Source of the DNA: Cloacibacillus evryensis DSM 19522 | Lineage (GTDB): Bacteria; Synergistota; Synergistia; Synergistales; Synergistaceae | Direction of reading: 5' to 3' | Assembly: GCF_000585335.1 (NCBI RefSeq) | Contig: NZ_KK073872.1 | Span: forward strand, 2,843,283-2,907,282 | DNA: 64,000 bases | Shown: positions 27,466 to 48,461 of the stretch, in pieces | How the letters are laid out: every line of letters begins with the position of its first letter | Position numbering within the stretch: position 1 is the stretch's first letter | Notes under the pieces: generated by a model | The model's database searches: none | The model's input: only the letters and a program-made list of their open reading frames with translations | What the model was told of the DNA's origin: nothing | Program-made: the position numbers and the translations under genes

Positions 27466-27505
27466 AGACTAAATATAGATTTCTACGCGTGAGGAGGAAC
27501 ATCTA

Positions 27506-28399: not shown

Positions 28400-28424
28400 A
28401 CTTTACATAAGGGGCTGATTTTAA

Positions 28425-30109: not shown

Positions 30110-30126
30110 ATTAGGAGGTGGGAAGA

Positions 30127-30663: not shown

Positions 30664-30690
30664 CCGCCGTTCAAAAACATAAGCCCACCG

Positions 30691-30726
30691 CGCGTCGGTA
30701 CGCCCTTGCCAAGGCGTACCGACGCG
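30691..30726. terminator. Perfect 14-bp hairpin after the 30.1-kb gene
   Basis: CGCGTCGGTACGCC (30691-30704) pairs exactly with GGCGTACCGACGCG (30713-30726) over an 8-base loop. There is no T run, so it may be a processing or stability element rather than an intrinsic terminator. The remaining 190 bases to rfbB hold only the promoter. Confidence 0.5.
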
Positions 30727-30867
30727 TCTTCGTAAGTGGATATATCCATAAATGCGGCAGGAACGCCGCCCGCATAAGGCATTCGTCCCAGCGGGCAGGC
30801 TGTGACGCCCGCGAAATAAAAAATTGCTATTCTTGTAGTTTGGCTACCGTATAAATTGATATACATT

Positions 30868-30877
30868 ATGCTATAAT
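30868..30877 (+). promoter_or_regulatory. Extended -10 promoter for the rfbBA operon
   Basis: ATGCTATAAT, identical to the motif before the rhodanese gene and to that of the wzz operon, lies 40-46 bases before the rfbB start. No clear -35. Confidence 0.6.
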
Positions 30878-30916
30878 CATGGCTGAGGCAACAAACTATC
30901 ATATGCTGGGACGGAT

Positions 30917-31989
30917 GTGTTCGTGACAAATACAAAAACCTACCTTCTGACCGGGGCAGCCGGGTTCATCGGCAGCAACCTCGCGCATTGCCTTACGACA
31001 GGCGGGGACAACGTGGTCGTTTATGACAAACTGACCTACGCGGGAAACGCCGCTTCGCTTGACGGTATCGCCGCGGAGAAGTTGGATTTCGTTCATGGCG
31101 ACATCTGTGATACCGAGTTGGTCTGCGAGACACTCGCAAGACATCACGTCGACGCCGTCTTCCACCTCGCGGCAGAGAGCCACGTCGACCGCTCGATCGA
31201 CGGCCCCGGCGCATTCATAGAGACAAATATCAACGGGACATTTTCGATGCTTTCAGCCTCGCGCAGATATTACGAAACATTGGACGGAGAGCAAAAGAAA
31301 GACTTCCGTTTCCTCCACATCTCCACGGATGAAGTCTATGGCAGCCTCGGGGACAGCGGTTACTTTACCGAAGAGACTCCTTACGCGCCAAACTCGCCCT
31401 ACTCTGCCTCAAAGGCATCGTCGGACCACTTGGTGCGCGCCTGGTTCCATACCTACGGATTCCCAACGCTGACGACTAACTGCTCAAACAACTACGGGCC
31501 GCGTCAGTTTCCTGAGAAACTGATCCCCCTCATCATACATAACGCACTGGCCGGCAAACCTCTGCCGATATACGGCGACGGCAAGAACGTCCGTGACTGG
31601 CTCTACGTGGAAGATCACTGCCGCGCGCTACATACGGTTATGCTTAAAGGCTCTCTTGGAGAGACATATAATATCGGCGGCAGCTGCGAGCGGCAAAATA
31701 TACAGATAGTAAAGACGGTCTGCTCGATCCTTGACGAGATCCGCCCAAAGGCGGATGGAGCAAAATATGAATCACAGATAACATATGTAAAAGACCGTCC
31801 CGGCCATGACCGCCGCTACGCGATCGATGCCGGTAAAATAAAAAAGGAACTTGGCTGGCAGCCGCAGGAGACCTTTGAAAGCGGCTTACGCAAAACCGTT
31901 GAATGGTACTTGAATCATCAACCATGGATAGAAAATATACTAAATGGCAAATACCGCTGCGAAAGGCTCGGACTGGGAGGTACGCAGGA

Positions 31990-31993
<4 letters not shown>
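30917..31993 (+). CDS. rfbB: dTDP-glucose 4,6-dehydratase
   Basis: RfbB converts dTDP-glucose to dTDP-4-keto-6-deoxyglucose. The protein has [15 protein letters not shown] (NAD binding), [37 protein letters not shown] (Tyr/Lys), [15 protein letters not shown] and [12 protein letters not shown]. Two GTG starts are possible, 30917 and 30923; the latter has better spacing from GGGACGGA. It overlaps rfbA by ATGA. No rmlC or rmlD is present, so the product feeds the aminosugar branch that follows rather than rhamnose. Confidence 0.95.
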
Positions 31994-32877
<884 letters not shown>

Positions 32878-32956
32878 AGTAAGCACATAAAAATATTGCA
32901 TTCGATATAGTGTTAACAAAATGGATTTTTAAGAATATGAAGGAGTCTTAATATTC

Positions 32957-34093
32957 ATGATACCGTTTAATAAACCATATCTAACAGGTAATGAAGTAAA
33001 GTATATTAACGAAGTATTAACCTCCAGAAGATTTTCCGGGGATGGTCGTTTTTCAAAAAAATGTGCTCACTGGATGGAAAAAAACCTCAATTGTAAAAAG
33101 GCAATACTTGTGCCATCCGGTACCGCCGCCCTTGAAATGATGATGCTTTTAGCTGATATAAAGCCGGGAGATGAAGTCATAATGCCTTCATTTACTTTTA
33201 GTTCAACAGCAAACGCAGTTGTGCTTCGTAATGCCACTCCGGTTTTTATAGATATTCGTCCTGATACATTAAACATAGACGAAAAACAAATTGAGGCCGC
33301 AATAACACCAAAGACAAAAGCTATATGCCCTGTTCATTACGCTGGAGTACCATGCGAAATGGATACCATAATAGCTACTGCAAAAAAATACAACCTTCTA
33401 GTATTAAACGATGCTGCTCAAGCTATTCTATCAAAATATAAGGACAACCAAGTATGTTCTATGGGTGATATGTCTGCAGTTAGTTTCCACGAAACAAAAA
33501 ATATTCAATGTGGAGAGGGGGGAGCCTTGTTAATTAATAACCCACAATTTATAGAGCGCGCAGAAATAATAATGGAAAAAGGAACAGACCGAAGCAAGTT
33601 TATTCGAGGCGAAGTCGATAGATATACATGGGTTGATTTAGGGTCTTCTATGCTAATTAATGAAATTACTGCCGCATTTTTATGGGCACAATTAGAGTAT
33701 GCACGTATTATAACCTCAAAGCGATTAGAACTGTGGAATAAATACAATGAAGCATTCCTGGAATTAGACGAAAAAAATATCATCAAAAAGCCTAAGCTTC
33801 CCGTCGACTGTAAGCATAATGGTCATATTTATTATCTTTTAACCAAGAATAGTAACGATAGAGATGTCATCATGGATAGGCTAAAGGAACACAAAATACA
33901 TTCTACATTCCACTATATACCTTTAGATTCTGCAAAAGCAGGGGGACGTTTTACTCATAAACATCCTAATAATCTACCAATTACATCAGATATTTCTTCA
34001 CGCATATTAAGGATGCCGTTATATTATGAACTTGATATTGACAAGACAATAAAACTTAGTACTAACATAATAGAAAGTGTAATTGTAAATTGA
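32957..34093 (+). CDS. dTDP-4-amino-4,6-dideoxyhexose transaminase (RffA/WecE type)
   Basis: This DegT/DnrJ/EryC1-family PLP enzyme aminates a 4-keto-6-deoxy sugar. It has IPFNKPYLTGNEVKYINEVL at the N-terminus, VPSGTAALEMMML, PSFTFSSTANAVVLR, PVHYAGVPCEMD, NDAAQAIL and FHETKNIQCGEGGAL with the Schiff-base Lys181. The 378-aa length and N-terminus are those of RffA/WecE (dTDP-Fuc4N), although a VioA-type (Qui4N) product cannot be excluded. The substrate comes from RfbB. The gene is AT-rich. Confidence 0.87.
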   Translation: MIPFNKPYLTGNEVKYINEVLTSRRFSGDGRFSKKCAHWMEKNLNCKKAILVPSGTAALEMMMLLADIKPGDEVIMPSFTFSSTANAVVLRNATPVFIDIRPDTLNIDEKQIEAAITPKTKAICPVHYAGVPCEMDTIIATAKKYNLLVLNDAAQAILSKYKDNQVCSMGDMSAVSFHETKNIQCGEGGALLINNPQFIERAEIIMEKGTDRSKFIRGEVDRYTWVDLGSSMLINEITAAFLWAQLEYARIITSKRLELWNKYNEAFLELDEKNIIKKPKLPVDCKHNGHIYYLLTKNSNDRDVIMDRLKEHKIHSTFHYIPLDSAKAGGRFTHKHPNNLPITSDISSRILRMPLYYELDIDKTIKLSTNIIESVIVN

Positions 34094-35196
34094 AAAAAAT
34101 CGCTATCATTGGTGCAAATGAATTCCAAAACCCCTTGATACTTAAAGCAAAAGACATGGGCTTTGAGACTCATGTTTTTGCGTGGAAATGTGGTGATATA
34201 GGAGAAAAAAACGCAGATTATTTTTATCCAATCAGCATTGCAGAAAAAGAAAAAATTCTAAAAATATGCGAAAGCATAAAAATATCTGCAATAGTATCAA
34301 TTGGTTCAGATTTTGCTGTTCACACAGTTAATTATGTTTCAAGAATCATGGGTTTTCCATGTAATAGTGTTGAATGCGAAAAAATGGCTACAAACAAATA
34401 TGCCATGCGCATGGCTTTTTTAGAAGCAGGAGTCCCGGTACCGAAATTCACCAAAGCTAATGTCAATTTTGATTTTAAAACATTGTATAATTATACTTTT
34501 CCTCTAATTGTAAAACCAACAGATCGATCAGGAAGCAGAGGTATTTTTAAATCTGATACACTAAAAGATGTAAGAGATGCTATTGCCATAGCATGTAAAG
34601 AATCTTGGAAACATGAGGCTATCATCGAAGAATTTTTTGAGGGAAATGAATATAGCTGTGAGAGTATATCTTATGCAGGAAAGCATCATATTCTGGCATA
34701 CACACAAAAATTTACTACAGGGGCACCACATTTTATAGAAACAGGTCATAAGCAACCTGCAAATTTCCCCAAATACATGGAACCACTAATTCGAGACCAT
34801 ATAACCAAGGCGCTAGACGCTTTAGACATAAAATACGGTGCCTCGCATACAGAATTCAAAATATTGGATAACAATCAAATAAGAATTATTGAAATAGGAG
34901 CACGTATGGGAGGGGATTATATAGGTTCAGATTTAGTACCATATTCAACAGGATATGACTATATGAGAATGGTGATCGATATTTCATTAAATCGACCTAT
35001 CTGTTGGGATAAAATGAACAAGCCTCACAATATGGAAGTTCGCTTTATATTTAATACAACCGATTATGATTATATGCAAAATATTATCAGAAATCAGCCC
35101 CAAAAAGTTGTACGAGCTACTTGCAGCAACAGGAATATATTTGAGAAGGTCACGGATAGCTCAAATAGACACGGTTATATTATTATAAAGGATTAG
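34090..35196 (+). CDS. ATP-grasp carboxylate-amine ligase
   Basis: The 368-aa protein has an N-terminal preATP-grasp Rossmann part (KIAIIGANEFQNPLILKAKD), then ATP-grasp motifs NKYAMRMAFLEAGVPVPKF, PLIVKPTDRSGSRGI, AIIEEFFEGNEYSCESI and IEIGARMGGDYIGSDLV (metal-binding Glu and Gly-rich loop). Such enzymes join a carboxylate to an amine using ATP. It starts with TTG overlapping the transaminase stop (TTGA), so it is tightly coupled to the aminosugar gene and may extend or attach its N-acyl group. The substrate is unknown. Confidence 0.82.
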   Translation: MKKIAIIGANEFQNPLILKAKDMGFETHVFAWKCGDIGEKNADYFYPISIAEKEKILKICESIKISAIVSIGSDFAVHTVNYVSRIMGFPCNSVECEKMATNKYAMRMAFLEAGVPVPKFTKANVNFDFKTLYNYTFPLIVKPTDRSGSRGIFKSDTLKDVRDAIAIACKESWKHEAIIEEFFEGNEYSCESISYAGKHHILAYTQKFTTGAPHFIETGHKQPANFPKYMEPLIRDHITKALDALDIKYGASHTEFKILDNNQIRIIEIGARMGGDYIGSDLVPYSTGYDYMRMVIDISLNRPICWDKMNKPHNMEVRFIFNTTDYDYMQNIIRNQPQKVVRATCSNRNIFEKVTDSSNRHGYIIIKD

Positions 35197-35213
35197 GAGA
35201 AATAACATAAAAA

Positions 35214-35885
35214 ATGAAAGATCTAATCATTTTTGGTACGAATGCATTTTCGAAACAACTTAAGCAGATAATCGAAAAGGACTCTGACAGAAGGATCAAA
35301 GCGTTTTGTCTAACTACAGATTATATAAAAACTGATACCTTTTGTGGCATACCTATTATAGATTTTGATCATCTAGAAACCTGCTTTAAGAAAGATACTT
35401 TTGAAATACTTGTATCTGTCGGTTACGGCAATATGAATAATAATAGAGAATATATATTTAAAAAGTGCATAAATAAAGGATACAACGTTGCCTCATATCG
35501 ACATTCTACTGCTAAAATAATGACGGATAATATTGGCATTGGAAATATTTTTTTAATTAATTCGTTTGTTTCTGATTTTACAAAAATTGGCAATGGTAAT
35601 ATAATACATAATAATGTAATAATTGAACATGAATCCACCATAGGGGATTATAATTTTTTTGCCGGTGCTGCTGCAACAGCAGGACTGGTGAAAATAGCTA
35701 GCCATTGTTTTTTGGGAGCAAAGTCCGTTATTTGTGATGAAGTTAGTATCGCCGACTATAATTTAATTGGAGCAGGGGTTGTTATTTCAAGTGATACTGA
35801 AAGTTACTCCATTCATAGCGTTGCAAAAACTAGAACAATACGTAATGCAAGCTTAGAAATGATGAATTATTTACTAATCAAATGA
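35214..35885 (+). CDS. PglD/NeuD-like sugar N-acyltransferase
   Basis: The 223-aa protein has the PglD layout: an N-terminal Rossmann-like part (KDLIIFGTNAFSKQLKQIIE) that binds the UDP or dTDP sugar, then left-handed beta-helix hexapeptide repeats (IGIGNIFLINSFVSDFTKIG, IIHNNVIIEHESTIGDYNFF, CFLGAKSVICDEVSIADYNL). The family's catalytic His may be that in IIEHES. PglD-type enzymes acylate the 4-amino group of a 6-deoxy sugar nucleotide. Given the following ketosynthase, ACP and reductase, the donor here may be acyl-ACP. Confidence 0.8.
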   Translation: MKDLIIFGTNAFSKQLKQIIEKDSDRRIKAFCLTTDYIKTDTFCGIPIIDFDHLETCFKKDTFEILVSVGYGNMNNNREYIFKKCINKGYNVASYRHSTAKIMTDNIGIGNIFLINSFVSDFTKIGNGNIIHNNVIIEHESTIGDYNFFAGAAATAGLVKIASHCFLGAKSVICDEVSIADYNLIGAGVVISSDTESYSIHSVAKTRTIRNASLEMMNYLLIK

Positions 35886-35929
35886 TACTATTCGAATTTT
35901 GTTCCAGATAAAACTAAGGAGGACAACTT

Positions 35930-36931
35930 GTGCAAATTTCATACTATACTCCTATAACTCGCCTAAACAATGAATATCTTGAATCTTTATACGCCAACCC
36001 CTCTTGGACGGCGTCAAAGATATACCGCAAGACTGGCATCAAGTCACGTCCTGTCGCTGGAACGGAGCTTGTCTCTGACATGGCGGTGAAGGCGGCGCAA
36101 AATCTTTTTGACGAATACAATATATCCCCGCAGGATATAGACTTCGTTCTGCTTTGCACCCAAAGCCCCGATTATTTCCTGCCGACGACGGCCTGTCTTG
36201 TACAGGAACGTCTCGGTATCCCCACAACATCTGGGGGCTTTGATTACAATCTCGGCTGCTCCGGCTACATCTATGGACTGGCGACCGCCAAAGGGCTGCT
36301 CTGCGCCGGCATCGCAAAAAATATCCTGCTCATTACCGCCGAGACATACACCAAACATATCAATCCGCTGGACAGGAGCACGAGAACAGTATTCGGAGAC
36401 GCGGCAACGGCCACATATCTCACCATAGAGGATATTGACCTGATTGGGAACTTTGTACTCGGCACCGACGGTAAAGGCGCACAAAACCTTATCGTCCCAG
36501 CAGGAGGCATGACACGGACACGAGATGACCAGACCGCTGTCGAGCATGAAGATGCCAGTGGAAACATCCGCAGCGATAACGACCTCTACATGAACGGGCC
36601 GGAAATATATGCCTTCACCTTGCGGGCGGTTCCGGGACTAGTCTCGGAGATATTAACTAAAAACAGCCTGACAATGGAGGACATTGACTACGTGATACTC
36701 CACCAGGCCAACAAACTTGTTCTCACCTCATTGAGAGACAAGCTTGAAATTGCTGAAGAAAAATTTTGCATCGATGTTGAAGAACTGGGCAACACCGTCA
36801 GTTCCACTGTCCCCATCGCGATAAAGAGGGCACTCAAAAAAGAACAGGAGAAACTTCACCCAGGCGCAAAAATCCTCATCGCGGGATTCGGCGTCGGCTA
36901 CTCCTGGGGAGGAACGGTCGTCACGCTCTGA
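35930..36931 (+). CDS. 3-oxoacyl-ACP synthase III-like ketosynthase
   Basis: The 333-aa thiolase-fold enzyme has Cys110 in DYNLGCSGYIYGLA, His258 in ILHQANKL and Asn288 in LGNTVSSTVPIA, the full FabH triad, plus GFGVGYSWGGTVV at the end. GTG at 35930 follows AAGGAGG. The first 60 bases are AT-rich and the remainder GC-richer, a second composition change. Its place beside an ACP and reductase suggests it builds a short beta-keto acyl chain for the aminosugar, as in known 3-hydroxybutyrylated viosamine loci. Confidence 0.9.
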   Translation: MQISYYTPITRLNNEYLESLYANPSWTASKIYRKTGIKSRPVAGTELVSDMAVKAAQNLFDEYNISPQDIDFVLLCTQSPDYFLPTTACLVQERLGIPTTSGGFDYNLGCSGYIYGLATAKGLLCAGIAKNILLITAETYTKHINPLDRSTRTVFGDAATATYLTIEDIDLIGNFVLGTDGKGAQNLIVPAGGMTRTRDDQTAVEHEDASGNIRSDNDLYMNGPEIYAFTLRAVPGLVSEILTKNSLTMEDIDYVILHQANKLVLTSLRDKLEIAEEKFCIDVEELGNTVSSTVPIAIKRALKKEQEKLHPGAKILIAGFGVGYSWGGTVVTL

Positions 36932-36998
36932 CAAAAACAAAACGAATAACCAAAACGACATACACAAGATAAGAATACTAAGAAAGGAAGATCACACA

Positions 36999-37217
36999 AT
37001 GACTATAGAAGAAAAAATCATACTGATAGCCGAAACACTGGATACGGATCAGAACAACGTCAAACCGGATGCTGAGCTCAAGTCCATAGAAGAATGGGAC
37101 TCCATGGGAGTGATATCGACGATAGCCATGCTCGACAGAAAATTCGGCAAAATCCTCAGCGCCGAACAAATAGAAGAGCTAAAGACAGTCCAGGACATCC
37201 TCAACCTGATGATTTAA
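36999..37217 (+). CDS. Acyl carrier protein
   Basis: The 72-aa acidic protein reads MTIEEKIILIAETLDTDQNN and has the phosphopantetheine site EEWDSMGVIS with Ser35, then KILSAEQIEELKTVQDILNL. It is a dedicated ACP between the ketosynthase and the ketoreductase, not the housekeeping one. Confidence 0.92.
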   Translation: MTIEEKIILIAETLDTDQNNVKPDAELKSIEEWDSMGVISTIAMLDRKFGKILSAEQIEELKTVQDILNLMI

Positions 37218-37219
37218 TA

Positions 37220-37984
37220 ATGAATAACGGCGTATTTGGACTTGAAGGACAAAAAATACTTATAACCGGCGCCTCCTCCGGCATCGGCAGAGCGACGGCT
37301 CAGTTAGCCGCCGCACAGGGAGCCATATGCATAATCAACGGGCGTGACGGGACCAGGCTGGACGAAACACTTTCAACTCTTGAAGGTGAAGGTCATATCG
37401 CAATAGCTTCTGATCTGACTCCTGAAAACTGCTCTGTGCTGGTCAAAGAAGCAGTCGCTAAAGCTGGTCTATTGAACGGCTTTGTCCATTGCGCCGGAAT
37501 CGAAAAAACTTTGCCATTTCGTATGACAGAGCTTTCGGATTTGCACGAAATAATGTCCATTAACCTCGACTCCTATTGGGAGATAACGAAAGAGATACTT
37601 AAAAAGAAAAACCACGAGCCTCAAAAACTATCTGTAGTTGCGATATCTTCTGTCGCTGGACAATACGGCGCGGCGGGCAAAACAGCATATGCGGCATCCA
37701 AAGGGGCTTTGATATCGCTAACAAAATCTCTGTCGGCGGAATATGCCGGCCAGGGAATAAGGTTCAACTGCGTGTGTCCCGGATATGTAAACACGCCCAT
37801 GCTGGGCAACGTAAAGAGGCTCTACAGGACAGAACAGGATTTTACAAACGCCATCGTGAAAAAGCACCTTCTCGGACTAGGTGAACCGGATGACGTGGCT
37901 TCAGCGGTCGTCTATCTGCTCTCAGTTGCGGCTAAATGGCTGACTGGTAGCGTTATGAATGTTGATGGCGGATATTGTGTTTAA
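37220..37984 (+). CDS. SDR-family 3-oxoacyl-ACP reductase-like protein
   Basis: This 254-aa short-chain dehydrogenase has ILITGASSGIGRATAQLAAA (NADP binding), VHCAGIEK, ISSVAGQYGAAGKTAYAASK with the Ser-Tyr-Lys catalytic set, CPGYVNTPM and LTGSVMNVDGGYCV at the end, a FabG-like pattern. It starts 2 bases after the ACP stop. With the ketosynthase it would give a 3-hydroxyacyl-ACP. The gene ends 4 bases from the stop of the convergent flippase gene, with no terminator between. Confidence 0.9.
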   Translation: MNNGVFGLEGQKILITGASSGIGRATAQLAAAQGAICIINGRDGTRLDETLSTLEGEGHIAIASDLTPENCSVLVKEAVAKAGLLNGFVHCAGIEKTLPFRMTELSDLHEIMSINLDSYWEITKEILKKKNHEPQKLSVVAISSVAGQYGAAGKTAYAASKGALISLTKSLSAEYAGQGIRFNCVCPGYVNTPMLGNVKRLYRTEQDFTNAIVKKHLLGLGEPDDVASAVVYLLSVAAKWLTGSVMNVDGGYCV

Positions 37985-37988
37985 AATT

Positions 37989-39425
37989 TTACAGCTCTCT
38001 TGTGTGTGCTAATTTTTTAATAAAAGATAAAATACAAACCGCTTGCGATTTATATAATAAGCACGTAATAATAATAAAAATAAATATGATTATGTATTTT
38101 ATAAAAATTATATTAAAAAATAAGACATTACAAACTGCACTTATAAATAATATACCTATGCCTAGACACAACTTAGGGAAATTATTTACACATATATAAT
38201 ATTTTTCCCCAATAAATGTAAACATAAAAAGTCTTACTAGTGCGGCTACAGAGGAAGATAGCGCAGCTCCCACAAGACTAAATTTAGGTATAAGCCATAC
38301 ACACAAACATATATTGATTAGGATAGTGAGGATCGTAATAAAAAAATGAAAATATGTCTTTTTGGATATTCCAATTCCTAATCCGGTTGTCTCAGATATT
38401 GTATATGCAATAGGAGGAATAATTAAAAAAGGGAAGAATATTTTACTGGCTCTATAGCTACTTCCAAGGAAGTAATAGATAAAATCTTGAGATAAAATAA
38501 TAAATAAAGCTGTAATAAGCATAACGAACGTAATCAAATGATGCACCATCTGAATAAGTGTTTGTTCTGTTTTATAATTTTTCCACACAAAAGCTGTCCA
38601 ATATATGTTAAATCCACCTTGCACCAAAGATATCAATCCGGCCATAGAAACAGCACTTGAGTAAAGACCAACCATTGCATATGAAAGATATTTATTTATT
38701 ATAAGTTGAGAGATTGAATTATTTAGTATAGTCATTAGCATAGTTGGCGCAAGTGGCAATGAAAACATTGCCACTTGTATAAGAAAGTTAATATTTACTT
38801 TCTTTGAGAATGTTATGTCGTTCCATAACATAAGGAACATAACTATGGCGCATAAACATTGTCCAATAGCAATGAATGAAATTGCATTTATAGCTGTAGT
38901 TTTCGCAAAGAAAGAAAATAGGTAGATAAATTTTATATTTATTACAGAAAAAATGTAAGCAATGGAGTACATCCGTATGTTTTCTTTCATTCTATATGTT
39001 AATGCTGCATAGGAAAGAACGATGCTACTGGCAATGTAAATTACAAGGCAGATTATTAAACGTGGTGATATCGTTCCTATAATATTTATCGATATTCTAT
39101 CATGAAAAAACAATATAAAAATACTTTCAAATATCACAATCAAACTAGATATGATCAAGGACCATCCTAGTAATATTCTGTACGTTACTCCATTAGGAGG
39201 CTCATGAAAAAATCTAACATAGGCCTGATCAAACCCCAAACTCCCTAAACACGTCAATACGCTGGAGTAAATAATAAATAAATTTATCTTGCCTAATTCT
39301 GACGGCTCAAAGATTCGTGTTGCGATAGGAATTGAAACAATACTAAAAAGGGCACCAATAAAGATTGGGCATGAAAATCCCAAAATATTTTTTAAGAATT
39401 TAATATTATCTATGGTTTTTTTCAT
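37989..39425 (-). CDS. Wzx-like O-antigen flippase
   Basis: The 478-aa, very hydrophobic protein has about 12-14 membrane helices and the N-terminal pattern of polysaccharide export flippases (LKNILGFSCPIFIGALFSIV, PIATRIFEPSELGKINLFII, LDQA-like GFDQAYVRFFHEPPNG). It would flip undecaprenyl-linked repeat units to the periplasm. It is strongly AT-rich, unlike the core genome, and is the last gene of the - strand polysaccharide operon. Confidence 0.85.
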   Translation of the reverse strand: MKKTIDNIKFLKNILGFSCPIFIGALFSIVSIPIATRIFEPSELGKINLFIIYSSVLTCLGSLGFDQAYVRFFHEPPNGVTYRILLGWSLIISSLIVIFESIFILFFHDRISINIIGTISPRLIICLVIYIASSIVLSYAALTYRMKENIRMYSIAYIFSVINIKFIYLFSFFAKTTAINAISFIAIGQCLCAIVMFLMLWNDITFSKKVNINFLIQVAMFSLPLAPTMLMTILNNSISQLIINKYLSYAMVGLYSSAVSMAGLISLVQGGFNIYWTAFVWKNYKTEQTLIQMVHHLITFVMLITALFIILSQDFIYYFLGSSYRASKIFFPFLIIPPIAYTISETTGLGIGISKKTYFHFFITILTILINICLCVWLIPKFSLVGAALSSSVAALVRLFMFTFIGEKYYICVNNFPKLCLGIGILFISAVCNVLFFNIIFIKYIIIFIFIIITCLLYKSQAVCILSFIKKLAHTREL

Positions 39426-39547
39426 TTCTGTTCATCATCTCGCCAATATCAATAATTATATATTAAAATTTAATTATCGTTAACTTTTAAATTTATTTAA
39501 AATATATAAAAAAACGGCTAAACACAAAATAAGAGATACTATATCTC

Positions 39548-40891
39548 TCAATGAAAGTTAGAATTATGCTTTTTTGCAATATATTGAAAATAATAATAAA
39601 ATAAATACACATTAGCTTCTATGAATGTGATTAGATTACGTTCCCAACAATTTAATACAGGCTTATCGGTTAGATTTTTTAGATTTATCAATTTATTCAT
39701 CATATTATCGACCGAAAAGTTCTCCGTAAGATATAAATGTGAATTTTTAACAAGTTCTACATAATCCGTATCATCCATATTGATAATTTGCTGCACTAAA
39801 TCAGATATCTTATAAATGCCATCTTGTGTTACTATATCAAATGTTTGTAACCAATATATTCCATTTGCATATTCCGTTTCACTTCCTTCTTTAGCGACTA
39901 TAGCTGGTACACTATTATTTATAGCATCAAATATCGTTGTGGCAGATCCTATATATATATCTGTATTTGCAAAATACCTATATAATTCATCATATTGCAC
40001 TGGACCTATAATCTGAATGCGTGCTTTACAATCTTGAGGTAAATAATTAACTACTTCCAACAAACGAGGCTTATCATCACCATAACCTATAATAGTTAAG
40101 CTAACATTATAACCTAGTTTACATAAATTATAAAATTCACTAACCAATCCTATTAAATACCCTTTTTCTGGAAAACTAAATCGCGTTACAGACAAAAGTC
40201 TGTAATGTGCCCTTTTTTTTATTTTCTGAAAGAGCTTTTCTTCGTCAAAATCAACAATTTCCATAGGATGACAAATATAGCTTATTTGATCTACATCATA
40301 ATCCAACTTGTAGTGGTCTAATAGTAATTTCATGACTTCTCCATTTCCCATAAAGATGAAACTGTTCCCATATAAAATTTTTTTTGCAATTTTTCTATAC
40401 AAGCTGTGATACAAGCAATATAATATCTTTGACCTTGCGGAGAAAGCTAAATCTCTGTATCCAAATCGTGTTATAACATAATAGAAATTATCTACACGTC
40501 GGGCCTTGTTTTTTTCCTTTATATTTTCCCCAACCAAAAAAGAACGGTAATCCGAAGACAAAATTACCAAGTGTACATCCTTTTTGATATTGCATCGGAG
40601 ATTGTTTAATTTATACATTGTATATTTATTGTTATACATTTTAAGAATGTCTGAAAAATACCAAGGTAAGCCGACAATTGACACATGATATTCTTGCTCT
40701 AACTGTGACGCTAATTCTTTATTCATGACAAACCCGCAGGGTCTTATTAAAATAAAACTATAGCCATTATAAAAACACCATCTTGCCATACGCAGTATAA
40801 GAGATTCCGCGCCACCTGACTCAAGCGCGTTGTAGACGTACATTATTGTGTTCTTATCTATCTCAATACTAATCAATATGATCACAACCAA
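39548..40891 (-). CDS. GT4-like glycosyltransferase
   Basis: The protein has the N-terminal donor-loop pattern MYVYNALESGGAESLILRMA and the C-terminal VTRFSFPEKGYLIGLVSEFY, LTIIGYGDDKPRLL, IIGPVQYDELYRYFANTDIY and AINNSVPAIVAKEGSETEYA, typical of GT-B GT4 enzymes. The start is uncertain: the frame opens at TTG 40891, GTG 40885 is possible, and ATG 40843 (MYVYNAL) gives a shorter but family-like N-terminus; no ribosome site decides it. Very AT-rich. Confidence 0.8.
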   Translation of the reverse strand: MVVIILISIEIDKNTIMYVYNALESGGAESLILRMARWCFYNGYSFILIRPCGFVMNKELASQLEQEYHVSIVGLPWYFSDILKMYNNKYTMYKLNNLRCNIKKDVHLVILSSDYRSFLVGENIKEKNKARRVDNFYYVITRFGYRDLAFSARSKILYCLYHSLYRKIAKKILYGNSFIFMGNGEVMKLLLDHYKLDYDVDQISYICHPMEIVDFDEEKLFQKIKKRAHYRLLSVTRFSFPEKGYLIGLVSEFYNLCKLGYNVSLTIIGYGDDKPRLLEVVNYLPQDCKARIQIIGPVQYDELYRYFANTDIYIGSATTIFDAINNSVPAIVAKEGSETEYANGIYWLQTFDIVTQDGIYKISDLVQQIINMDDTDYVELVKNSHLYLTENFSVDNMMNKLINLKNLTDKPVLNCWERNLITFIEANVYLFYYYFQYIAKKHNSNFH

Positions 40892-40942
40892 TTTATTTAA
40901 ATTTTACAGCAGCAACTAATATCAACATTTACAAATTCAATT

Positions 40943-42067
40943 CTAATAAAATAAATAATCCAAGAAAAAATTATCCGTAAAGAGCGTAAAAAATATATCA
41001 TATATATATGGATAAATTAGAATTATAAAATTTATAATAACAGAAATAATAATCATCGTGTATGCTATAATACGTTCTTTCCCCTTAGGGATATATCGAA
41101 TTGTAGCAAAGAAACACACATACTCTAGCCCCTGAACTCCTCTAAAAATTCTATAGAATTCCGAATTAACTCTTACTAGAATTAAAAACAAAATCAATAA
41201 TATATTACATAAATAAACGGCATCTATTAATCTTTTAGTATATAAAAATTTGTAATTATTATTCATTATAGGTCGATATTTATACAATAACTTTCTCACA
41301 TAAGCAATGGTTATCAAAAAAGATAGATGGCATATTGAATATAATATATAACCATATCTTCCTTTAATATCAAAATATAGCAATTTACTCTCAGGCAAAT
41401 TTATTATATTGTTAACCACATACAATAGTGTTTGTAGCACTCCCTCACAAATACTTCTAGATAAAACCAGTATACATGTAAAAATAACAACCAAAACAAT
41501 CATAAACGTATAATTTTTTCTTTTTGCATTAAAATTTTCCTTATTTGACTGCGAAAGTGCATATATAAAAATTATATATACAAATATAGACCTATGAAAC
41601 AATGCAAGTATAAGAATAGATAATACATAAAAAATATAATCTGTAACTTTATTTTTACGCAACTTTATACTTGATAAAAAAACCATGTAAAAGATGGCAT
41701 TGGCTATCATATTCCTTATGTTAGCTATATCAAATGACAGCGGAGTGAAAAAATAAAAAAGTTCAAAAAACATCAAATACTTTCCTATTAACCGATAAGT
41801 AGTCGCTGCAATACATAAAATCGAAAAAAATATTATCAAAAAACGAAAACCTTCATACGTAAATCCTAGAGAATTACTTAATTTTTGCAGTAAAGAAAAC
41901 CCTTTCTCCATGCTTTCTGCTGAATAGACTCCTTCATAAATATGCTTATAATTCGTATAATCGAATGTGTTATAACATCCTCCTGCTATAATTAATACTA
42001 TCATCATTATAAATAATGGATTCCAGCTTATTTTATTGTTATTTATTTTATGGTTAACCTCTATCAT
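40943..42067 (-). CDS. EpsG/Wzy-like polysaccharide polymerase
   Basis: The 374-aa protein has about ten membrane helices and the EpsG-family pattern: N-terminal PLFIMMIVLIIAGGCYN, then YTNYKHIYEGV, EKGFSLLQKLSNSLG, LSFDIANIRNMIANAIFYM and ALFHRSIFVYIIFIYAL. It is the probable Wzy polymerase of the Wzx/Wzy/Wzz system whose flippase and chain-length regulator lie in the same operon. AT-rich. Confidence 0.82.
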   Translation of the reverse strand: MIEVNHKINNNKISWNPLFIMMIVLIIAGGCYNTFDYTNYKHIYEGVYSAESMEKGFSLLQKLSNSLGFTYEGFRFLIIFFSILCIAATTYRLIGKYLMFFELFYFFTPLSFDIANIRNMIANAIFYMVFLSSIKLRKNKVTDYIFYVLSILILALFHRSIFVYIIFIYALSQSNKENFNAKRKNYTFMIVLVVIFTCILVLSRSICEGVLQTLLYVVNNIINLPESKLLYFDIKGRYGYILYSICHLSFLITIAYVRKLLYKYRPIMNNNYKFLYTKRLIDAVYLCNILLILFLILVRVNSEFYRIFRGVQGLEYVCFFATIRYIPKGKERIIAYTMIIISVIINFIILIYPYIYDIFFTLFTDNFFLDYLFY

Positions 42068-42218
42068 TTATAGTTAACTCCTTTGTCCATCAAATACGGC
42101 GCTCAGCAAGACTTTATCCTGCTTTTTATGCTTATTCCCATACGTTAGCCAATCAGGGCAAATAAATTGGGACTATTATGATTGATCCATTTCTATAATA
42201 AATTTTAAACTCTTTTCT

Positions 42219-43325
42219 TCAATGCATATTAGTATCATTAACAAATCTTAATATCATTTGTTCATACAATGTGTTATCATGGAGGACTTTACTAAGAAAA
42301 GTTACTGCATTATTTTTTATAATATCATCAATGTTGTTATGGTAGTAATTGATCAGACGCTCTTTGATACCTGGCTCATCAAAATCAAAGACAAAGCCAA
42401 CTTTGTATTTTTCAACAATCTCAGCCATATATGTGTTTTTACAAACCAATATTGGAATACCTAATTGCACTGCATGGTATAGCCTATTTGATAGGGCAAA
42501 GTCTAGGTACTTACTCCCATATCCATATAGATTATTGATAAAATCTGTGTTTATATAAAATTCAAAAGTTTTGTCTTGAGAGAATTCGTTTACTAGGTTT
42601 ACATTGCAAATATGATTATCTTCACAATATGATTTTAAACCAGAAGCTCCACTACCTATATATTCCAGTACAAATCTCTCATCGTTTGCAAACAACTTGA
42701 TAAGCTTCATGTCCATTTCATAGAAGCGCACTGTACCTATATATGAAATTACAAATTTCCCTCTTTCATGTCTCTCGCGTTGTAACGTGATGATTTTTTC
42801 TAGCATCTCTGGTTGGACTTGTGTAAAATTATGAGCAACCACATATTGGTGGGACATAGGTAAAAATTTTTGATATGCTGGAGAAGAAATAACGGCAGCA
42901 TATGAATTTTTAATAACAATATTTTCAATAGCATAATATAAACGAAAACCCTCTAGTGTATAGTCCCGAATATCAACAATATATTGCTTACAGTAACGAA
43001 GAATGAGAATGTCAGCGCATGCAACAGCAGCATGAGTTTGCAATAAGACCACACCCGCGTAGGACTTTTCTTTTAGTTTTTTCCTTATAAATTGGATAAC
43101 ACCTATGTATTTAACATATTTGTGAATTCTTCCTGTTTTATGTGTGATCTTACAACTATATGGAATGTACTTTACATTGCTTTCCTCGTATTCAATATCG
43201 TTTCCATATCGATCCCAGTATATGACATCACAAAAGTCGTTACCTTTTGATAAAGCTCCGATGTATTTATTTGCATATGGAATATTGTTGATATTGATGA
43301 AACTTATAACGCAGTAGTTGCTCAT
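42219..43325 (-). CDS. Glycosyltransferase (GT4-like)
   Basis: The 368-aa protein reads MSNYCVISFININNIPYANK, then VIYWDRYG, VDIRDYTLEGFRLYYAIENI, SSPAYQKFLP, VISYIGTVRFYEMDMKLIKL, FVLEYIGSGASGLKSYC and HAVQLGIPILVCKNTYMAEI, a GT-B organisation as in GT4 enzymes of O-antigen loci. Its ATG overlaps the stop of the 58-codon gene upstream (ATGA). Acceptor and donor are unknown. Confidence 0.75.
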   Translation of the reverse strand: MSNYCVISFININNIPYANKYIGALSKGNDFCDVIYWDRYGNDIEYEESNVKYIPYSCKITHKTGRIHKYVKYIGVIQFIRKKLKEKSYAGVVLLQTHAAVACADILILRYCKQYIVDIRDYTLEGFRLYYAIENIVIKNSYAAVISSPAYQKFLPMSHQYVVAHNFTQVQPEMLEKIITLQRERHERGKFVISYIGTVRFYEMDMKLIKLFANDERFVLEYIGSGASGLKSYCEDNHICNVNLVNEFSQDKTFEFYINTDFINNLYGYGSKYLDFALSNRLYHAVQLGIPILVCKNTYMAEIVEKYKVGFVFDFDEPGIKERLINYYHNNIDDIIKNNAVTFLSKVLHDNTLYEQMILRFVNDTNMH

Positions 43326-43498
43326 GATATTCTACCTGATGTTGTTTTAACCGTTCCTGTATAGTGCAAGATAATTTTTACATCGCTAGTTAATTTATCC
43401 AAAGCCACAATTTGTTCTGAGTTAGCCATAGTGTGAACAATAGGAAAATATTCGAGGGAAGATAATTCCTTTTGCAACATACAATCTAATAGCTTCAT
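43322..43498 (-). CDS. 58-aa protein coupled on both sides by ATGA overlaps
   Basis: This short frame starts at ATG 43498 within the wecB-like stop (ATGA, with GGAG 7 bases upstream) and ends at a TGA that overlaps the ATG of the next glycosyltransferase. It thus exactly bridges the two genes. The product starts MKLLDCMLQKELSSLEYFPI and ends TVKTTSGRIS, with no membrane segment and no family I recognise. It may be a small real protein or the surviving piece of a larger gene; the double coupling argues that it is translated. Confidence 0.6.
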   Translation of the reverse strand: MKLLDCMLQKELSSLEYFPIVHTMANSEQIVALDKLTSDVKIILHYTGTVKTTSGRIS

Positions 43499-44622
43499 TG
43501 TTTTCTCCAGACCATACTATTAATAATGCCGGTGTAGCTTTGAATTATCTTGACGACCTTAACGCTCACATTTTCATCAGCATAAGCTGGGACTGTCAGC
43601 CCATCATCGCCGTTTGCGTGCATAGATACGGCCAGATCGACCGCCTGAAGCACCTGTTCCGTGGTGATAGAACCAATGGTAAATATCCCCTTATCCATCG
43701 CCTCCGGGCGCTCTGTCGATGTGCGGATGGAGACGGCGGGGAATTTAAAATAGGAGCCCTCTTCGGGGACAGTTCCACTGTCGGATACCACACAGAAAGC
43801 ATTCTGCTGGAGTTTGTTATAGTCGAAGAAGCCAAGCGGCTGATGCTGCAGCACGCGCTTGTCAAAGACAAAGCCGCGCTGTTCTATGTACTTCCGGGAG
43901 CGCGGGTGACACGAATAGAGAATCGGCATGTCGTATCTTTCCGCCATCGCGTTTACCGCATTCATAAGGGCGAAGAAGTTTTTCTCGATGTCTATGTTCT
44001 CTTCCCTGTGGGCTGAGAGCAAAATATATTTTTGAGATTTCAAGTCGAGTTTTTCCAGGATTTGGCTGCTGTTAATTTTATCAATATTTGCAGTTAATAC
44101 CTCTGCCATAGTTGACCCGACAACAAAAGTATTTTCAGGTTTAACCCCCGTATCCAGAATATACCGGCGGGCGTTTTCAGAATAGCAGAGGTTGACATCG
44201 CTGGTAACATCAACAATACGACGAATGACTTCCTCCGGCAGATTCTCATCTTTGCAACGGTTCCCCGCTTCAAGATGAAAAACTGGAATTTTGAGGCGTT
44301 TTGCTGAAATAACACAGAGGCAAGAATTGGTATCCCCAAGTACAAGCACGGCATCTGGCTTTTCCGCATTGAATAATTCATAAGACTTGGTAATTACATT
44401 ACCCATGGTTTGGCCTAGGTTTTTACCAACAACATCAAGATAATAATCAGGCTCGCGCAGGCCTAATTCGTCAAAGAACAGCTTATTCAGCGTGTAATCA
44501 TAATTTTGTCCGGTATGTACCAGACTTAAGTTGAAGTATCTATCGCACTTCTTCACGATTTCAGATAATTTGATAATTTCAGGACGTGTTCCTATTACTA
44601 CCATTAATTTTAATTTGCTCAT
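43495..44622 (-). CDS. Non-hydrolysing UDP-N-acetylglucosamine 2-epimerase family (WecB/FnlC-like)
   Basis: The protein starts MSKLKLMVVIGTRPEIIKLS and has HTGQNYDYTLNKLFFDELGL, VLGDTNSCLCVISAKRL, FHLEAGNRCKDENLPEEVIR, LLSAHREENID and SDSGTVPEEGSYFKFPAVSI. In this context, after an FnlA-like dehydratase and a reductase, it is probably the 2-epimerase of a UDP-L-6-deoxyaminosugar pathway (FnlC/WbvD role) rather than housekeeping WecB. ATG 44622 or 44625 overlaps the previous stop. Confidence 0.88.
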   Translation of the reverse strand: MSKLKLMVVIGTRPEIIKLSEIVKKCDRYFNLSLVHTGQNYDYTLNKLFFDELGLREPDYYLDVVGKNLGQTMGNVITKSYELFNAEKPDAVLVLGDTNSCLCVISAKRLKIPVFHLEAGNRCKDENLPEEVIRRIVDVTSDVNLCYSENARRYILDTGVKPENTFVVGSTMAEVLTANIDKINSSQILEKLDLKSQKYILLSAHREENIDIEKNFFALMNAVNAMAERYDMPILYSCHPRSRKYIEQRGFVFDKRVLQHQPLGFFDYNKLQQNAFCVVSDSGTVPEEGSYFKFPAVSIRTSTERPEAMDKGIFTIGSITTEQVLQAVDLAVSMHANGDDGLTVPAYADENVSVKVVKIIQSYTGIINSMVWRKQ

Positions 44623-45485
44623 CATTTTTCTCCTTGTATAAAGTAATGTGGATATAAGTTCTTGTGTTGCGTTATCCATTCTGCCATTTGCGTCATCATG
44701 TTTTCATATGAAGGAATCTTTAATTGATAATCTTCTATCGATTGCACTAAGGATTTATCCACGAATCTGTTTTCGGCTGGTATGATTTGCTTGTCGACAC
44801 ACATGGTTTTCGCAAAGAGCTTTAGCAAGTCATATTTGCTTATTGACGTTGCCGGAACACACTGGAATAGACCATGAGCACGCATTCTTACCAACGAATC
44901 TATTTCTTTAGAAAACTCCACTGTGGATAGTCCCGTCCAGATTGCCTTTGTAAAACCATTTATCTGACCAGTTTGCCCCATAAACCAATTCAGCAGCCCT
45001 GCCCCCGATGGATTCAACTCTGGGCCAACCAGCGACGTACGGATAGTAATGTCTTTGCTGTTGATAATTTCTCCTATAGCTTTTGTTCTGGCATAGAAAC
45101 TATCTGCATCTGGCGTATCACTCAGTTGGTAACGCCCGCGTTTTCCAGAAAAAATACAATCCGTACTTCTGTGAACGACAATTGTCTGGGTTCCAACCGT
45201 GATTTTTTCAAGGTAATGCGGAATGAAGGCATTAATAAATACAGCCTCCGCTTTATCCTGTTCAGCGAATTCGTTAATGACAGCAGTACAGTTTATAACT
45301 GCGTCAAAAGAACCCTTTACGATACAAGCTTTTAACGCTCTGAGATCGTATAAACTTGCACCGATACTGTGGAATAATGGGGACGGTAAATCATCATACC
45401 CCAACACATCATTGCCATGTTCAATCAAAAATAACGCAACTACATGGCCCACCATATTATTACTGCCGAGAACTAAATACTTCAT
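44622..45485 (-). CDS. RmlD-like sugar-nucleotide reductase
   Basis: The 287-aa extended SDR has KYLVLGSNNMVGHVVALFLI, INCTAVINEFAEQDKAEAVF, VHRSTDCIFSGKRGRYQLSD and YARTKAIGE (Tyr/Lys). It lacks the C-terminal cupin domain of CapF/FnlB (about 370 aa), so it fits the WbvR role: reduction of the UDP-4-keto-L sugar to UDP-L-RhaNAc, which the next epimerase would turn into UDP-L-QuiNAc. It overlaps the FnlA-like gene by four bases. Confidence 0.8.
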   Translation of the reverse strand: MKYLVLGSNNMVGHVVALFLIEHGNDVLGYDDLPSPLFHSIGASLYDLRALKACIVKGSFDAVINCTAVINEFAEQDKAEAVFINAFIPHYLEKITVGTQTIVVHRSTDCIFSGKRGRYQLSDTPDADSFYARTKAIGEIINSKDITIRTSLVGPELNPSGAGLLNWFMGQTGQINGFTKAIWTGLSTVEFSKEIDSLVRMRAHGLFQCVPATSISKYDLLKLFAKTMCVDKQIIPAENRFVDKSLVQSIEDYQLKIPSYENMMTQMAEWITQHKNLYPHYFIQGEK

Positions 45486-46522
45486 CTGATTCTTTTTCCT
45501 TTATAATCTAATTCGTCACGAATGTATTGCAGGGACATCAGCTTTGACTTAACCTGCTCGACGCGTAAACGTTTCGTATTATTGGAATTGAATTCATAGA
45601 CAGTATTTTCTATTGGCGTACCTATATTGAAGTATTTCTCATAGTTCAAGTCGCGCTTATCGCAGGGGACGCGGAAGAAGTTGCCCATGTCTTCTGCATG
45701 GGCGCATTCTTCTTTGGTCAGGAGGGTCTCGTACATTTTCTCTCCATGGCGGATGCCGATGATCTTTGTCTCAGCGTCGGGGTTGAATAACTCTTTTATC
45801 GCCTGGGCCAGTACCTCTATGGTGCAGGCAGGGGCCTTCTGGACCATGATGTCGCCGTTTGCGGCATGTTCGAAGGCGAATATCACCAGATCCACCGCCT
45901 CTTCAAGGCTCATGATAAAGCGGGTCATGGCAGGTTCGGTGATGGTTATCGGCTGCCCCGCCTTTATCTGCTCCACAAAACGGGGAATGACGGAACCGCG
46001 CGAGGCCATGACGTTGCCGTATCTCGTGCAGCAGATAACGGTTTTATCCTCCGACACGGTGCGTGACTTTGCGACGACGACCTTTTCCATCATGGCTTTG
46101 GATGTGCCCATGGCGTTGATGGGATAGGCGGCCTTATCGGTGGAGAGGCAGATGATCTTTTTCACGCCGTATTCGATGGCGGCAGAGAGGACGTTGCCCG
46201 TGCCGATGACGTTGGTCTTCACCGCCTCAATGGGGAAGAACTCGCAGGAGGGCACCTGTTTCAGAGCGGCTGCATGGAAGATGTAATCTACGCCGTGCAT
46301 GGCGTTCTTGACGCTGTTTATATCGCGCACGTCGCCGATGTAGAATTTTATCTTCTCGTTATTGTGATATTCGGTGCGCATGTCGTCCTGTTTCTTCTCG
46401 TCGCGGGAGAAGATGCGGATTTCTTTTATGTCCGTAGAAAGGAAACGGTCGAGGACCGCGTGACCGAAAGAACCCGTGCCGCCCGTGATTAATAAAATTT
46501 CATTATTAAAATACAGGGACAT
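45482..46522 (-). CDS. fnlA: UDP-GlcNAc 4,6-dehydratase/3,5-epimerase (FnlA/CapE/WbjB type)
   Basis: The 346-aa protein has ILLITGGTGSFGHAVLDRFL, IFSRDEKKQDDMR, FHAAALKQVPSCEFFPIEAV, CLSTDKAAYPINAMGTSKAM, CTRYGNVMASRGSVIP and GIRHGEKMYETLLTKEE, the pattern of soluble CapE/FnlA enzymes that start UDP-L-FucNAc or UDP-L-QuiNAc synthesis. It is distinct from the membrane-bound PglF-type dehydratase at 50.2-52.1 kb. Much of its sequence is GC-richer than that of the neighbouring genes. Confidence 0.88.
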   Translation of the reverse strand: MSLYFNNEILLITGGTGSFGHAVLDRFLSTDIKEIRIFSRDEKKQDDMRTEYHNNEKIKFYIGDVRDINSVKNAMHGVDYIFHAAALKQVPSCEFFPIEAVKTNVIGTGNVLSAAIEYGVKKIICLSTDKAAYPINAMGTSKAMMEKVVVAKSRTVSEDKTVICCTRYGNVMASRGSVIPRFVEQIKAGQPITITEPAMTRFIMSLEEAVDLVIFAFEHAANGDIMVQKAPACTIEVLAQAIKELFNPDAETKIIGIRHGEKMYETLLTKEECAHAEDMGNFFRVPCDKRDLNYEKYFNIGTPIENTVYEFNSNNTKRLRVEQVKSKLMSLQYIRDELDYKGKRIR

Positions 46523-47720
46523 TTCTCTTACTCCTCAATTCGTTTAATTCGTTGTAAAGAGTGGACATAAATACTCTTTTGCTAAAATGATCCGCAAAAT
46601 ACTTGCGGCCATTAGCTCCACAATTTTTGTATCTATCCTTATGGGTGATAAACTCACGCATAGCGTTGCTCATTCCTTGTACATCTCCCGACGGCACACA
46701 GATTCCACAGCCGGATTTTTGAATAACTTCCTTTGCGGGGCCGTCAATCATTCCTATAATTGGTTTTCCTGCCGCCATATAGCCCTGTACTTTTGAGGGG
46801 AGTGTCAGGCCTGTCAAATTATCCGATTTGAGTGAAACAATGCAGGCATCCGCTAATTTATAAAAGTTCGGCATTTCTTCAACCGGACGGCGACCATAAA
46901 AACGGACTTTTTCATCCAGCCCCATATTTGAAACTTTTAGCTTTAACCCGGCAAGGCTTGAGCCGTCGCCCACAATGTGAAGGATAAAGCGCTGCAAATC
47001 CCCTAATGTCGCTACCGCCTCTATGACTTCCTCTAAATTCTGGGCAATTCCAACGTTGCCAAGAAAAATGAAATCTACGGTACTGTCATCAGGAGTGAAA
47101 TTTGCTTCCAGATAATCATCGCTTGCGAACGCAGGAAGATACGATAACTTGTCGGAAGAAATCATGTGCACACGTTCCATGTATGAAACAAAGCTGCTCG
47201 ATTGTGTCAGGATTCGACTACAATCCATGTATATAGAAGTGCTGATTTTTTTGATTATCTGAAAGAAAAAGCTCCTTTCTTTCTTGACAATCAACTTCAT
47301 GGATTCCGGCCAAAGGTCACAACAATAAAGCAGCAACGGAGTTTTATTCTTACGAGCATATTTAATGCCTGGAATAGCCATTAGCACGGGAGAAAGCTGA
47401 TATACGAACACCACGTCAAAATCATCGGGCAATCTTTTTGCCATGAATGTTGCCGATATACAATAACTGAGGTAATTGACAGCAAGCCCTAGCGTCCCTT
47501 TGCGGCGGCCAATTTCAAAACAACGAATAACATGAACGCCGTTGATGATTTCATCACGCTTTTGCCCATACTTATACTCGTCAGGAATAATCCCTGACGG
47601 ATAATTTGGGAGCCCTGTGATAACTGTTACATCATTTCCGTCATGTGCCAGTTGCTCACAAATGTCGTTGATCTGAAAATTTTCCGGATAATAGTATTGA
47701 CAGAAGACAAGGATTTTCAT
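46506..47720 (-). CDS. WbuB-like GT4 glycosyltransferase
   Basis: The 404-aa protein starts MKILVFCQYYYPENFQINDI and has GLPNYPSGIIPDEYKY, LLYCCDLWPESMKLIVKKER, FLGNVGIAQNLEEVIEAVAT, VGDGSSLAGLKLKVSNMGL, VRFYGRRPVEEMPNFYKLAD and LPSKVQGYMAAGKPIIGMI. WbuB-family enzymes transfer L-FucNAc or a related sugar to the lipid-linked first sugar, which fits the adjacent FnlA-like pathway. Confidence 0.85.
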   Translation of the reverse strand: MKILVFCQYYYPENFQINDICEQLAHDGNDVTVITGLPNYPSGIIPDEYKYGQKRDEIINGVHVIRCFEIGRRKGTLGLAVNYLSYCISATFMAKRLPDDFDVVFVYQLSPVLMAIPGIKYARKNKTPLLLYCCDLWPESMKLIVKKERSFFFQIIKKISTSIYMDCSRILTQSSSFVSYMERVHMISSDKLSYLPAFASDDYLEANFTPDDSTVDFIFLGNVGIAQNLEEVIEAVATLGDLQRFILHIVGDGSSLAGLKLKVSNMGLDEKVRFYGRRPVEEMPNFYKLADACIVSLKSDNLTGLTLPSKVQGYMAAGKPIIGMIDGPAKEVIQKSGCGICVPSGDVQGMSNAMREFITHKDRYKNCGANGRKYFADHFSKRVFMSTLYNELNELRSKRNVPVF

Positions 47721-48391
47721 TCTCTTGGCATTCCTTGTGTTTTATTAAAATTAGCATCGCAGGTAAAATCAGATTTTCCTTGTTCTCTTTGCTTTGCCAT
47801 AATAACACCCGTGCCGCCTTCTACGACGCCCTCTTTTTTCAGTACGCAGGCGATGGTACCGATGAAGCATTTGCAGTCGAAGAGGAAGCTCATTTTCTTT
47901 ACGTATTCGCCGTCGTATCTGGCCTTTACCTCTATCGGCAGTTCGTCGCGGCCGTTTATCTGCGCCCAGCCGGTTAGGCCGGGGCGGATGTCGTTGGCTC
48001 CGTATTTGTCGCGTTCGGCGATGAGGTCGTACTGGTTCCAGAGCGCGGGGCGCGGGCCGATGACGGACATTTGCCCTACTAGTATATTTATTATCTGTGG
48101 TAATTCGTCTAAACTCGTTTTGCGCAGAAACTTTCCTGTCTTTGTGATATAGGCATCAGGATTGGACAGCAGATGAGTCGGCATATCCTTTGGCGTGTCT
48201 ATTCTCATCGTCCTGAATTTATAGATGTCGAAGTATGACTTGTGTATACCGAAACGTTTCTGCTTGAAAAGGACGGGGCCGGACGAATCCAGTTTTATTG
48301 CCGCTATGACGGCAATAAAGACAGGGGAGAGGAACAGCAACCCTAACAGTGAAAGGACAATATCCAGCGCGCGTTTGATCGGCATATACAT
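47717..48391 (-). CDS. Initiating phosphoglycosyl transferase (PglC/WcaJ family)
   Basis: The protein starts MYMPIKRALDIVLSLLGLLF with one reentrant N-terminal helix, then KFRTMR, TSLDELPQIINILVGQMSVI, GPRPALWNQYDLI and RPGLTGWAQINGRDELP, the small monotopic PGT pattern. It moves a sugar phosphate from a UDP-sugar to undecaprenyl phosphate, the first membrane step of the repeat unit. The ATG at 48391 lies 9 bases after AGGAG; longer frames up to 48439 lack support. The PglF-like gene upstream may make its substrate. Confidence 0.88.
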   Translation of the reverse strand: MYMPIKRALDIVLSLLGLLFLSPVFIAVIAAIKLDSSGPVLFKQKRFGIHKSYFDIYKFRTMRIDTPKDMPTHLLSNPDAYITKTGKFLRKTSLDELPQIINILVGQMSVIGPRPALWNQYDLIAERDKYGANDIRPGLTGWAQINGRDELPIEVKARYDGEYVKKMSFLFDCKCFIGTIACVLKKEGVVEGGTGVIMAKQREQGKSDFTCDANFNKTQGMPRE

Positions 48392-48461
48392 TTTCCACAT
48401 CTCCTTTCTACATAACATATTTTTGCTGCTAAGCTGCATTAAATTTTTATATTCCTAGATA

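Follow-up and report, generated by a model that had tools for sequence, protein, structure and literature searches.

The window analysed here, a stretch of 64,000 nucleotides from Cloacibacillus evryensis DSM 19522, contains an operon that is predicted, with a probability of roughly 0.6, to make dTDP-Fuc4N with side groups attached, for use in an LPS O-antigen or a capsule-type polysaccharide. Its ATP-grasp ligase would aminoacylate the 4-amine of the sugar, and its N-acyltransferase (NAT) would cap the amino acid with 3-hydroxybutyrate. In the proposed pathway, RfbA and RfbB provide dTDP-4-keto-6-deoxyglucose, which the WecE-type transaminase would convert to dTDP-4-amino-4,6-dideoxygalactose, the best supported of these steps. 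The ATP-grasp ligase would then join an ATP-activated amino acid to the 4-amino group. KASIII (beta-ketoacyl-ACP synthase III) would build an acetoacetyl group on the dedicated acyl carrier protein (ACP), and the SDR ketoreductase would reduce it to 3-hydroxybutyryl-ACP, as the precedent of the viosamine island suggests. Finally, the PglD-like NAT would put 3-hydroxybutyryl on the free amine of the amino acid. The predicted product is dTDP-4-[N-(3-hydroxybutyryl)aminoacyl]amino-4,6-dideoxygalactose; the sequence does not specify which amino acid is used or how long the acyl chain is. Each step resembles known chemistry, and the combination of enzymes is new. The original prediction named a dTDP-4-(3-hydroxyacyl)amino sugar, possibly extended; we retain the hydroxyacyl group and the extension, but place the hydroxyacyl group more likely on the amino acid than on N-4.

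The operon forms one row on the plus strand with short or no gaps. It starts with rfbB/rmlB (30917..31993), encoding dTDP-glucose 4,6-dehydratase (TIGR01181, 475 bits, cut-off 365), and rfbA/rmlA (31990..32877), encoding glucose-1-phosphate thymidylyltransferase (TIGR01207, 482 bits, cut-off 361). The rfbA start is most likely at 31990, inside the listed open reading frame (31903-32877) and overlapping the end of rfbB. The six genes that follow are intact, open, and consecutive. They encode the WecE-type dTDP-4-keto-6-deoxyglucose 4-transaminase (32957..34093), the ATP-grasp ligase (34090..35196, with a TTG start codon at 34090), the PglD/NeuD-like left-handed beta-helix NAT (35214..35885), KASIII (35930..36931), the ACP (36999..37217), and the SDR ketoreductase (37220..37984). 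The reductase gene starts at 37220 and encodes 254 residues, and the start at 37094 of a longer overlapping open reading frame is not the gene start. The transaminase has its catalytic Lys181, KASIII has a complete Cys110-His258-Asn288 triad, the ACP has Ser35 within a DSM motif, and the reductase has Ser144-Tyr157-Lys161. KASIII passes its Pfam cut-off and NF006829 (260 bits against 249), the ACP passes the cut-off of PF00550 (30 bits), and the reductase matches PF13561/PF00106. The family scores of the transaminase (NF008687, 542 bits), RfbB, and RfbA are well beyond chance. The arrangement described earlier, with these six functions consecutive behind rfbBA, is thus confirmed by open reading frames, family profiles, and catalytic residues. 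The pathway had also been called self-contained. It does have a dedicated sugar route and its own 3-hydroxyacyl supply, but the term is too strong because malonyl-CoA:ACP transacylase, phosphopantetheinyl transferase, and the glycosyltransferase lie outside the block.

We predict dTDP-Fuc4N (dTDP-4-amino-4,6-dideoxygalactose) as the sugar, and this assignment is well supported. The transaminase passes both WecE profiles, NF008687 (cut-off 375) and TIGR02379 (537 bits, cut-off 435). Its identity is 52% with WecE of E. coli, against 29-30% with the VioA-type transaminases of E. coli O121 and O123 and 34% with Burkholderia glumae VioA, and it falls outside the VioA type. Its nearest PDB entries are 6blg and 4piw/4zah. 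On the strength of the WecE scores, the nearest PDB entries, and the identities, viosamine was ruled out as the sugar of the operon. The comparison with viosamine loci made in the original prediction therefore holds for the acyl genes and the NAT beside a 4-transaminase, but not for the predicted sugar. An own-genome search found no rmlC in the whole genome, and the only dTDP-glucose 4,6-dehydratase over the family cut-off was the rfbB of the operon. Hence, the keto sugar is probably dedicated, without a rhamnose branch, and it was ruled out that rfbBA also feed dTDP-rhamnose synthesis. The WecE scores, the lack of rmlC, the single rfbB, and the KASIII-ACP-SDR genes together support a pathway devoted to a dTDP-4-amino-4,6-dideoxyhexose and equipped to supply its own 3-hydroxyacyl groups.

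The ATP-grasp protein passes the Pfam cut-off of PF13535 (68 bits). By sequence, its nearest PDB chain is the L-amino-acid ligase BL00235, and its predicted fold is also nearest to L-amino-acid ligases (3vot; VIA Z 32.5, rmsd 2.9, 330 aligned). The structure model was built from five sequences and has a pLDDT of 73.7, with the C-terminus (332-368) below 50. The LAL_C2 C-terminal domain (PF18603) has no match in this protein and is present in the enzyme neighbouring at L008. We then inspected five related loci whose ATP-grasp proteins are 49-55% identical to that of the window. They include two near-duplicate pairs, and their hosts belong to Oscillospiraceae, Clostridiales, and Bacteroidetes MAGs. 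In all five, a WecE-type transaminase is encoded at most a few kb away, and in L010 the ATP-grasp gene sits between rfbA-transaminase and rfbB. KASIII and ACP had no match in the four loci read (L008-L011). As the loci of the relatives hold a WecE-type transaminase without KASIII or ACP, we assign the ATP-grasp enzyme to the amino-sugar part of the pathway rather than to acyl supply. In 188 genomes of the phylum, no orthologue was found at E 1e-70 except the window's own. The likeness to L-amino-acid ligases and the locus context of the relatives support the extra amide or aminoacyl step that had been proposed for this enzyme. Counting against the proposal, no structure-linked locus has an ATP-grasp enzyme at the aminoacylation step. 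ATP-grasp and KASIII homologues are absent from both solved E. coli analogues, O121 and O123, and within our incomplete coverage of the open-access literature we found no ATP-grasp enzyme assigned to O-antigen aminoacylation.

The NAT carries hexapeptide repeats (PF00132) and the conserved His of an IEHE-like motif (His139-Glu140) in alignment with PglD; TIGR03570 recognises it at 126 bits, under the cut-off of 160.8. Among roughly 140 loci compared, the NATs of L137 and L140 are most closely related to it, and its near relatives as a group sit in WecE/WbqC and WecE/ATP-grasp loci rather than in viosamine-type loci. The NAT of B. glumae is only 21% identical to it. This kinship speaks against a simple N-acyl sugar, in which the NAT would set 3-hydroxybutyrate directly on the 4-amine and the ATP-grasp enzyme would modify another sugar or a later intermediate. 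Also against it, the ATP-grasp gene is placed between those for the transaminase and the NAT, and its relatives accompany WecE-type transaminases where KASIII and ACP are missing. Such a simple product does have a precedent in P. syringae, where KASIII, ACP, SDR, and NAT act without an ATP-grasp enzyme (PMC3927599). Moreover, nine of the eleven closest KASIII-ACP-SDR loci have no ATP-grasp gene nearby (two of these loci are on short contigs), and L060, which likewise has none nearby, encodes a 67% identical WecE-type transaminase. Taking both sides together, we consider the simple N-acyl sugar unlikely, though worth keeping in view. A second alternative, which we consider very improbable, has the ATP-grasp enzyme charge the ACP with an amino acid that the NAT then transfers from the ACP. 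BtrJ loads an amino acid onto an ACP in this way in butirosin synthesis, and the operon has a dedicated ACP two genes downstream of the NAT, but the orthologous loci L008-L011 lack an ACP match and the KASIII-ACP-SDR genes have a history of their own, as described below.

Aminoacylation of the sugar by the ATP-grasp enzyme also fits the gene order of the NAT's relatives. In L137 and L140 the order is transaminase-WbqC-NAT, and in the window it is transaminase-ATP-grasp-NAT. In these two loci (L137 9065-12508; L140 687-3585) the WecE-type transaminase, WbqC, and NAT genes stand in a row with a beta-keto acid cleavage enzyme (BKACE), which is perhaps another acyl supply. No WbqC-family protein was found in the whole genome of the window. 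In the syntenic position of a congener (G001, the one congener genome compared), rfbB and rfbA are 88% and 79% identical to those of the window, and the six genes after rfbA are replaced by WbqC, a homologue of an O123 hypothetical protein, an epimerase, and a VioA-type transaminase. This WbqC/VioA module is related to that of E. coli O123. ATP-grasp and WbqC are not strict alternatives and can share one pathway, since ATP-grasps of another subfamily adjoin WbqC in L141 and L143. We regard it as an even bet that this ATP-grasp family aminoacylates dTDP-4-amino sugars in the same slot as WbqC, with N-(hydroxyacyl)aminoacyl-Fuc4N as product and unrelated parts being interchangeable. A protein of about 320 residues occurs beside WbqC and ATP-grasps in L113 (17073-18047), L123 (14161-15126), L143 (119-1048), and L115 (10196-10678). 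In O123 it has no Pfam or NCBIfam match and looks transaminase-like by eye, and the O123 hypothetical protein showed no significant match to a small DegT-like protein of L011.

By descent, the six genes fall into two blocks rather than forming a single pathway. GC content is 31-36% in the genes for the transaminase, the ATP-grasp enzyme, and the NAT, and 44-51% in those for KASIII, ACP, and SDR. The latter three form a portable unit (35915..37975, plus strand) with the GC step at its left edge. Over 2065 bp, its DNA is 93.9% identical to a stretch at 2.09 Mb in the congener, in a locus that is not homologous to the operon: nothing else from 30001-48500 of the window matches there. Away from the polysaccharide genes, identity between the two genomes is mostly 82-86% at the DNA level. 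The cassette's neighbours in the congener are a UDP-sugar dehydrogenase, an LpxD-like N-acyltransferase, and a Gfo/Idh oxidoreductase. The GC step and the 94% identity at an unrelated locus point to separate histories, and the simplest reading is a recent transfer of the cassette from one sugar locus to another, unrelated one. The original prediction had treated the genes as one pathway unit; its gene order stands, but its unity does not, the cassette being portable between unrelated sugar loci. Across the phylum, related KASIII-ACP-SDR trios accompany FdtA/FdtB-like, VioA-like, WecE-like, and other transaminases. KASIII-ACP-SDR is thus a module of three genes that supplies acyl groups to a variety of amino-sugar pathways. 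L059 has the same gene order as the window, but its transaminase is of the VioA type and its ATP-grasp is a different one. A DNA search with the KASIII-SDR stretch found no match in E. coli. In L058 (410-5404) two tandem ACP/KASIII/SDR sets lie beside one NAT; two rounds could yield 3,5-dihydroxyhexanoyl, a group known from another polysaccharide. The least probable alternative, that the cassette serves a lipid or other hydroxyacid pathway as a mere neighbour of the sugar genes, can point to solitary KASIII relatives about 50% identical in many related genomes (some 45-53% in L066-L070 and L072-L105, without ACP or SDR), but the genome's other KASIII is 28-32% identical and located elsewhere, the closest trios with readable flanks are in sugar loci, and a 49% identical KASIII belongs to the flagellar viosamine island of B. 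glumae.

The operon is embedded in a polysaccharide locus. The LPS genes kdsD and a Kdo transferase are on its left. On its right, convergent with it, is a gene with a weak match to PF13440, assigned as a Wzx-type flippase (37989..39425, minus strand). It is followed on the same strand by two glycosyltransferase-like genes and an EpsG-type Wzy polymerase (39548..43325), a predicted three-gene UDP-L-QuiNAc pathway (43495..46522), and a WcaI-type glycosyltransferase with an initiating sugar-phosphate transferase (46506..48439; PF00534, PF02397, NF007640). The L-QuiNAc assignment follows E. coli O123, whose WecB-like, RmlD-like, and FnlA/CapE proteins are 46%, 31%, and 66% identical to those of the window. 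Three further stretches differ from the congener or match it elsewhere. A stretch of about 3 kb (25437-28407) with an HD-domain-like gene, a gene for a 174-residue protein, and a HipA_C-like gene is absent in the congener, where the flanks abut. A SLFN_AlbA_2/HATPase_c_4 gene (49130-50242, minus strand) lies within the polysaccharide locus, with no DNA match there in the congener. The segment 57941-58146 matches a different place of the congener locus (L123 2229-2420, 72-87%) and is perhaps a repeat.

Three systems of known product allow gene content to be compared with structure. The E. coli O123 locus, which was found via published wzx primers and then read, has the order transaminase-WbqC-hypothetical-GNAT-MaoC plus L-QuiNAc genes. 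E. coli O121 has transaminase-WbqC-GNAT and no acyl-supply gene, and we take it to be of the N-acetylglycyl type. The O123 product is 4-{N-[(S)-3-hydroxybutanoyl]-D-alanyl}Qui4N (PMC10609480), and N-acetylglycyl-Qui4N is a listed sugar (PMC3210612). In P. syringae, vioA, vioB, vioS, vioR, and acp, with no aminoacylating gene among them, lead to N-(3-hydroxybutyryl)viosamine, a product without an amino acid, and vioR mutants reveal the role of the reductase in one such pathway (PMC3927599). As read off these three structures, an aminoacylating gene would go with an amino acid and an acyl-supply gene with an acyl group other than acetyl. By this rule the window would make N-(3-hydroxyacyl)aminoacyl-Fuc4N. 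The plan has four parts, namely a transaminase, an aminoacylating enzyme, an N-acyltransferase, and an acyl supply, each of which would be replaceable by an unrelated enzyme.

Serotype and immune recognition depend in part on the amino-acid and hydroxy-acid side chains that surface sugars carry. If the proposal is true, unrelated parts can stand in for one another in building such side chains, which are then predictable from gene content. The locus and its relatives offer a concrete hypothesis for the role of two enzyme families, the ATP-grasp enzymes and WbqC, and passing a cassette of three acyl-supply genes from one sugar pathway to another, unrelated one is a simple way to alter bacterial surface chemistry.

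We compared the operon with known systems. Like the window, the flagellin viosamine island of P. syringae and B. glumae has a transaminase for dTDP-4-keto-6-deoxyglucose with a hexapeptide NAT, KASIII, ACP, and SDR encoded next to it, but this transaminase is of the VioA type, it has no ATP-grasp, and it serves flagellin rather than lying in an LPS-type locus. The O-antigen loci of E. coli O123 and Salmonella O58, both for the D-alanyl-bearing Qui4N sugar named above, share with the window rfbBA, a 4-transaminase, an aminoacylating step, an N-acyltransferase, and an acyl supply, and O123 also has the same three-gene L-QuiNAc set. The parts differ: O123 uses a VioA-type transaminase, WbqC, GNAT, and MaoC, whereas the window has a WecE-type transaminase, ATP-grasp, a PglD-like NAT, and KASIII-ACP-SDR. 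The Fuc4NAc pathway of enterobacterial common antigen (RffG, RffH, WecE, WecD) follows the same route to dTDP-Fuc4N, but in the window its WecD-type acetyltransferase is replaced by the ATP-grasp, the PglD-like NAT, and the KASIII cassette. The L-amino-acid ligases BL00235, BacD/YwfE, and RizA share the ATP-grasp fold and are the nearest solved structures; the window enzyme differs from them in its identity of about 20%, its lack of LAL_C2, and its predicted acceptor, a sugar amine. NikS, PolG, and BlsL are ATP-grasp-type enzymes that assemble peptidyl-aminonucleosides (PMC11641026); they belong to antibiotic pathways and are likened to the window enzyme by description only.
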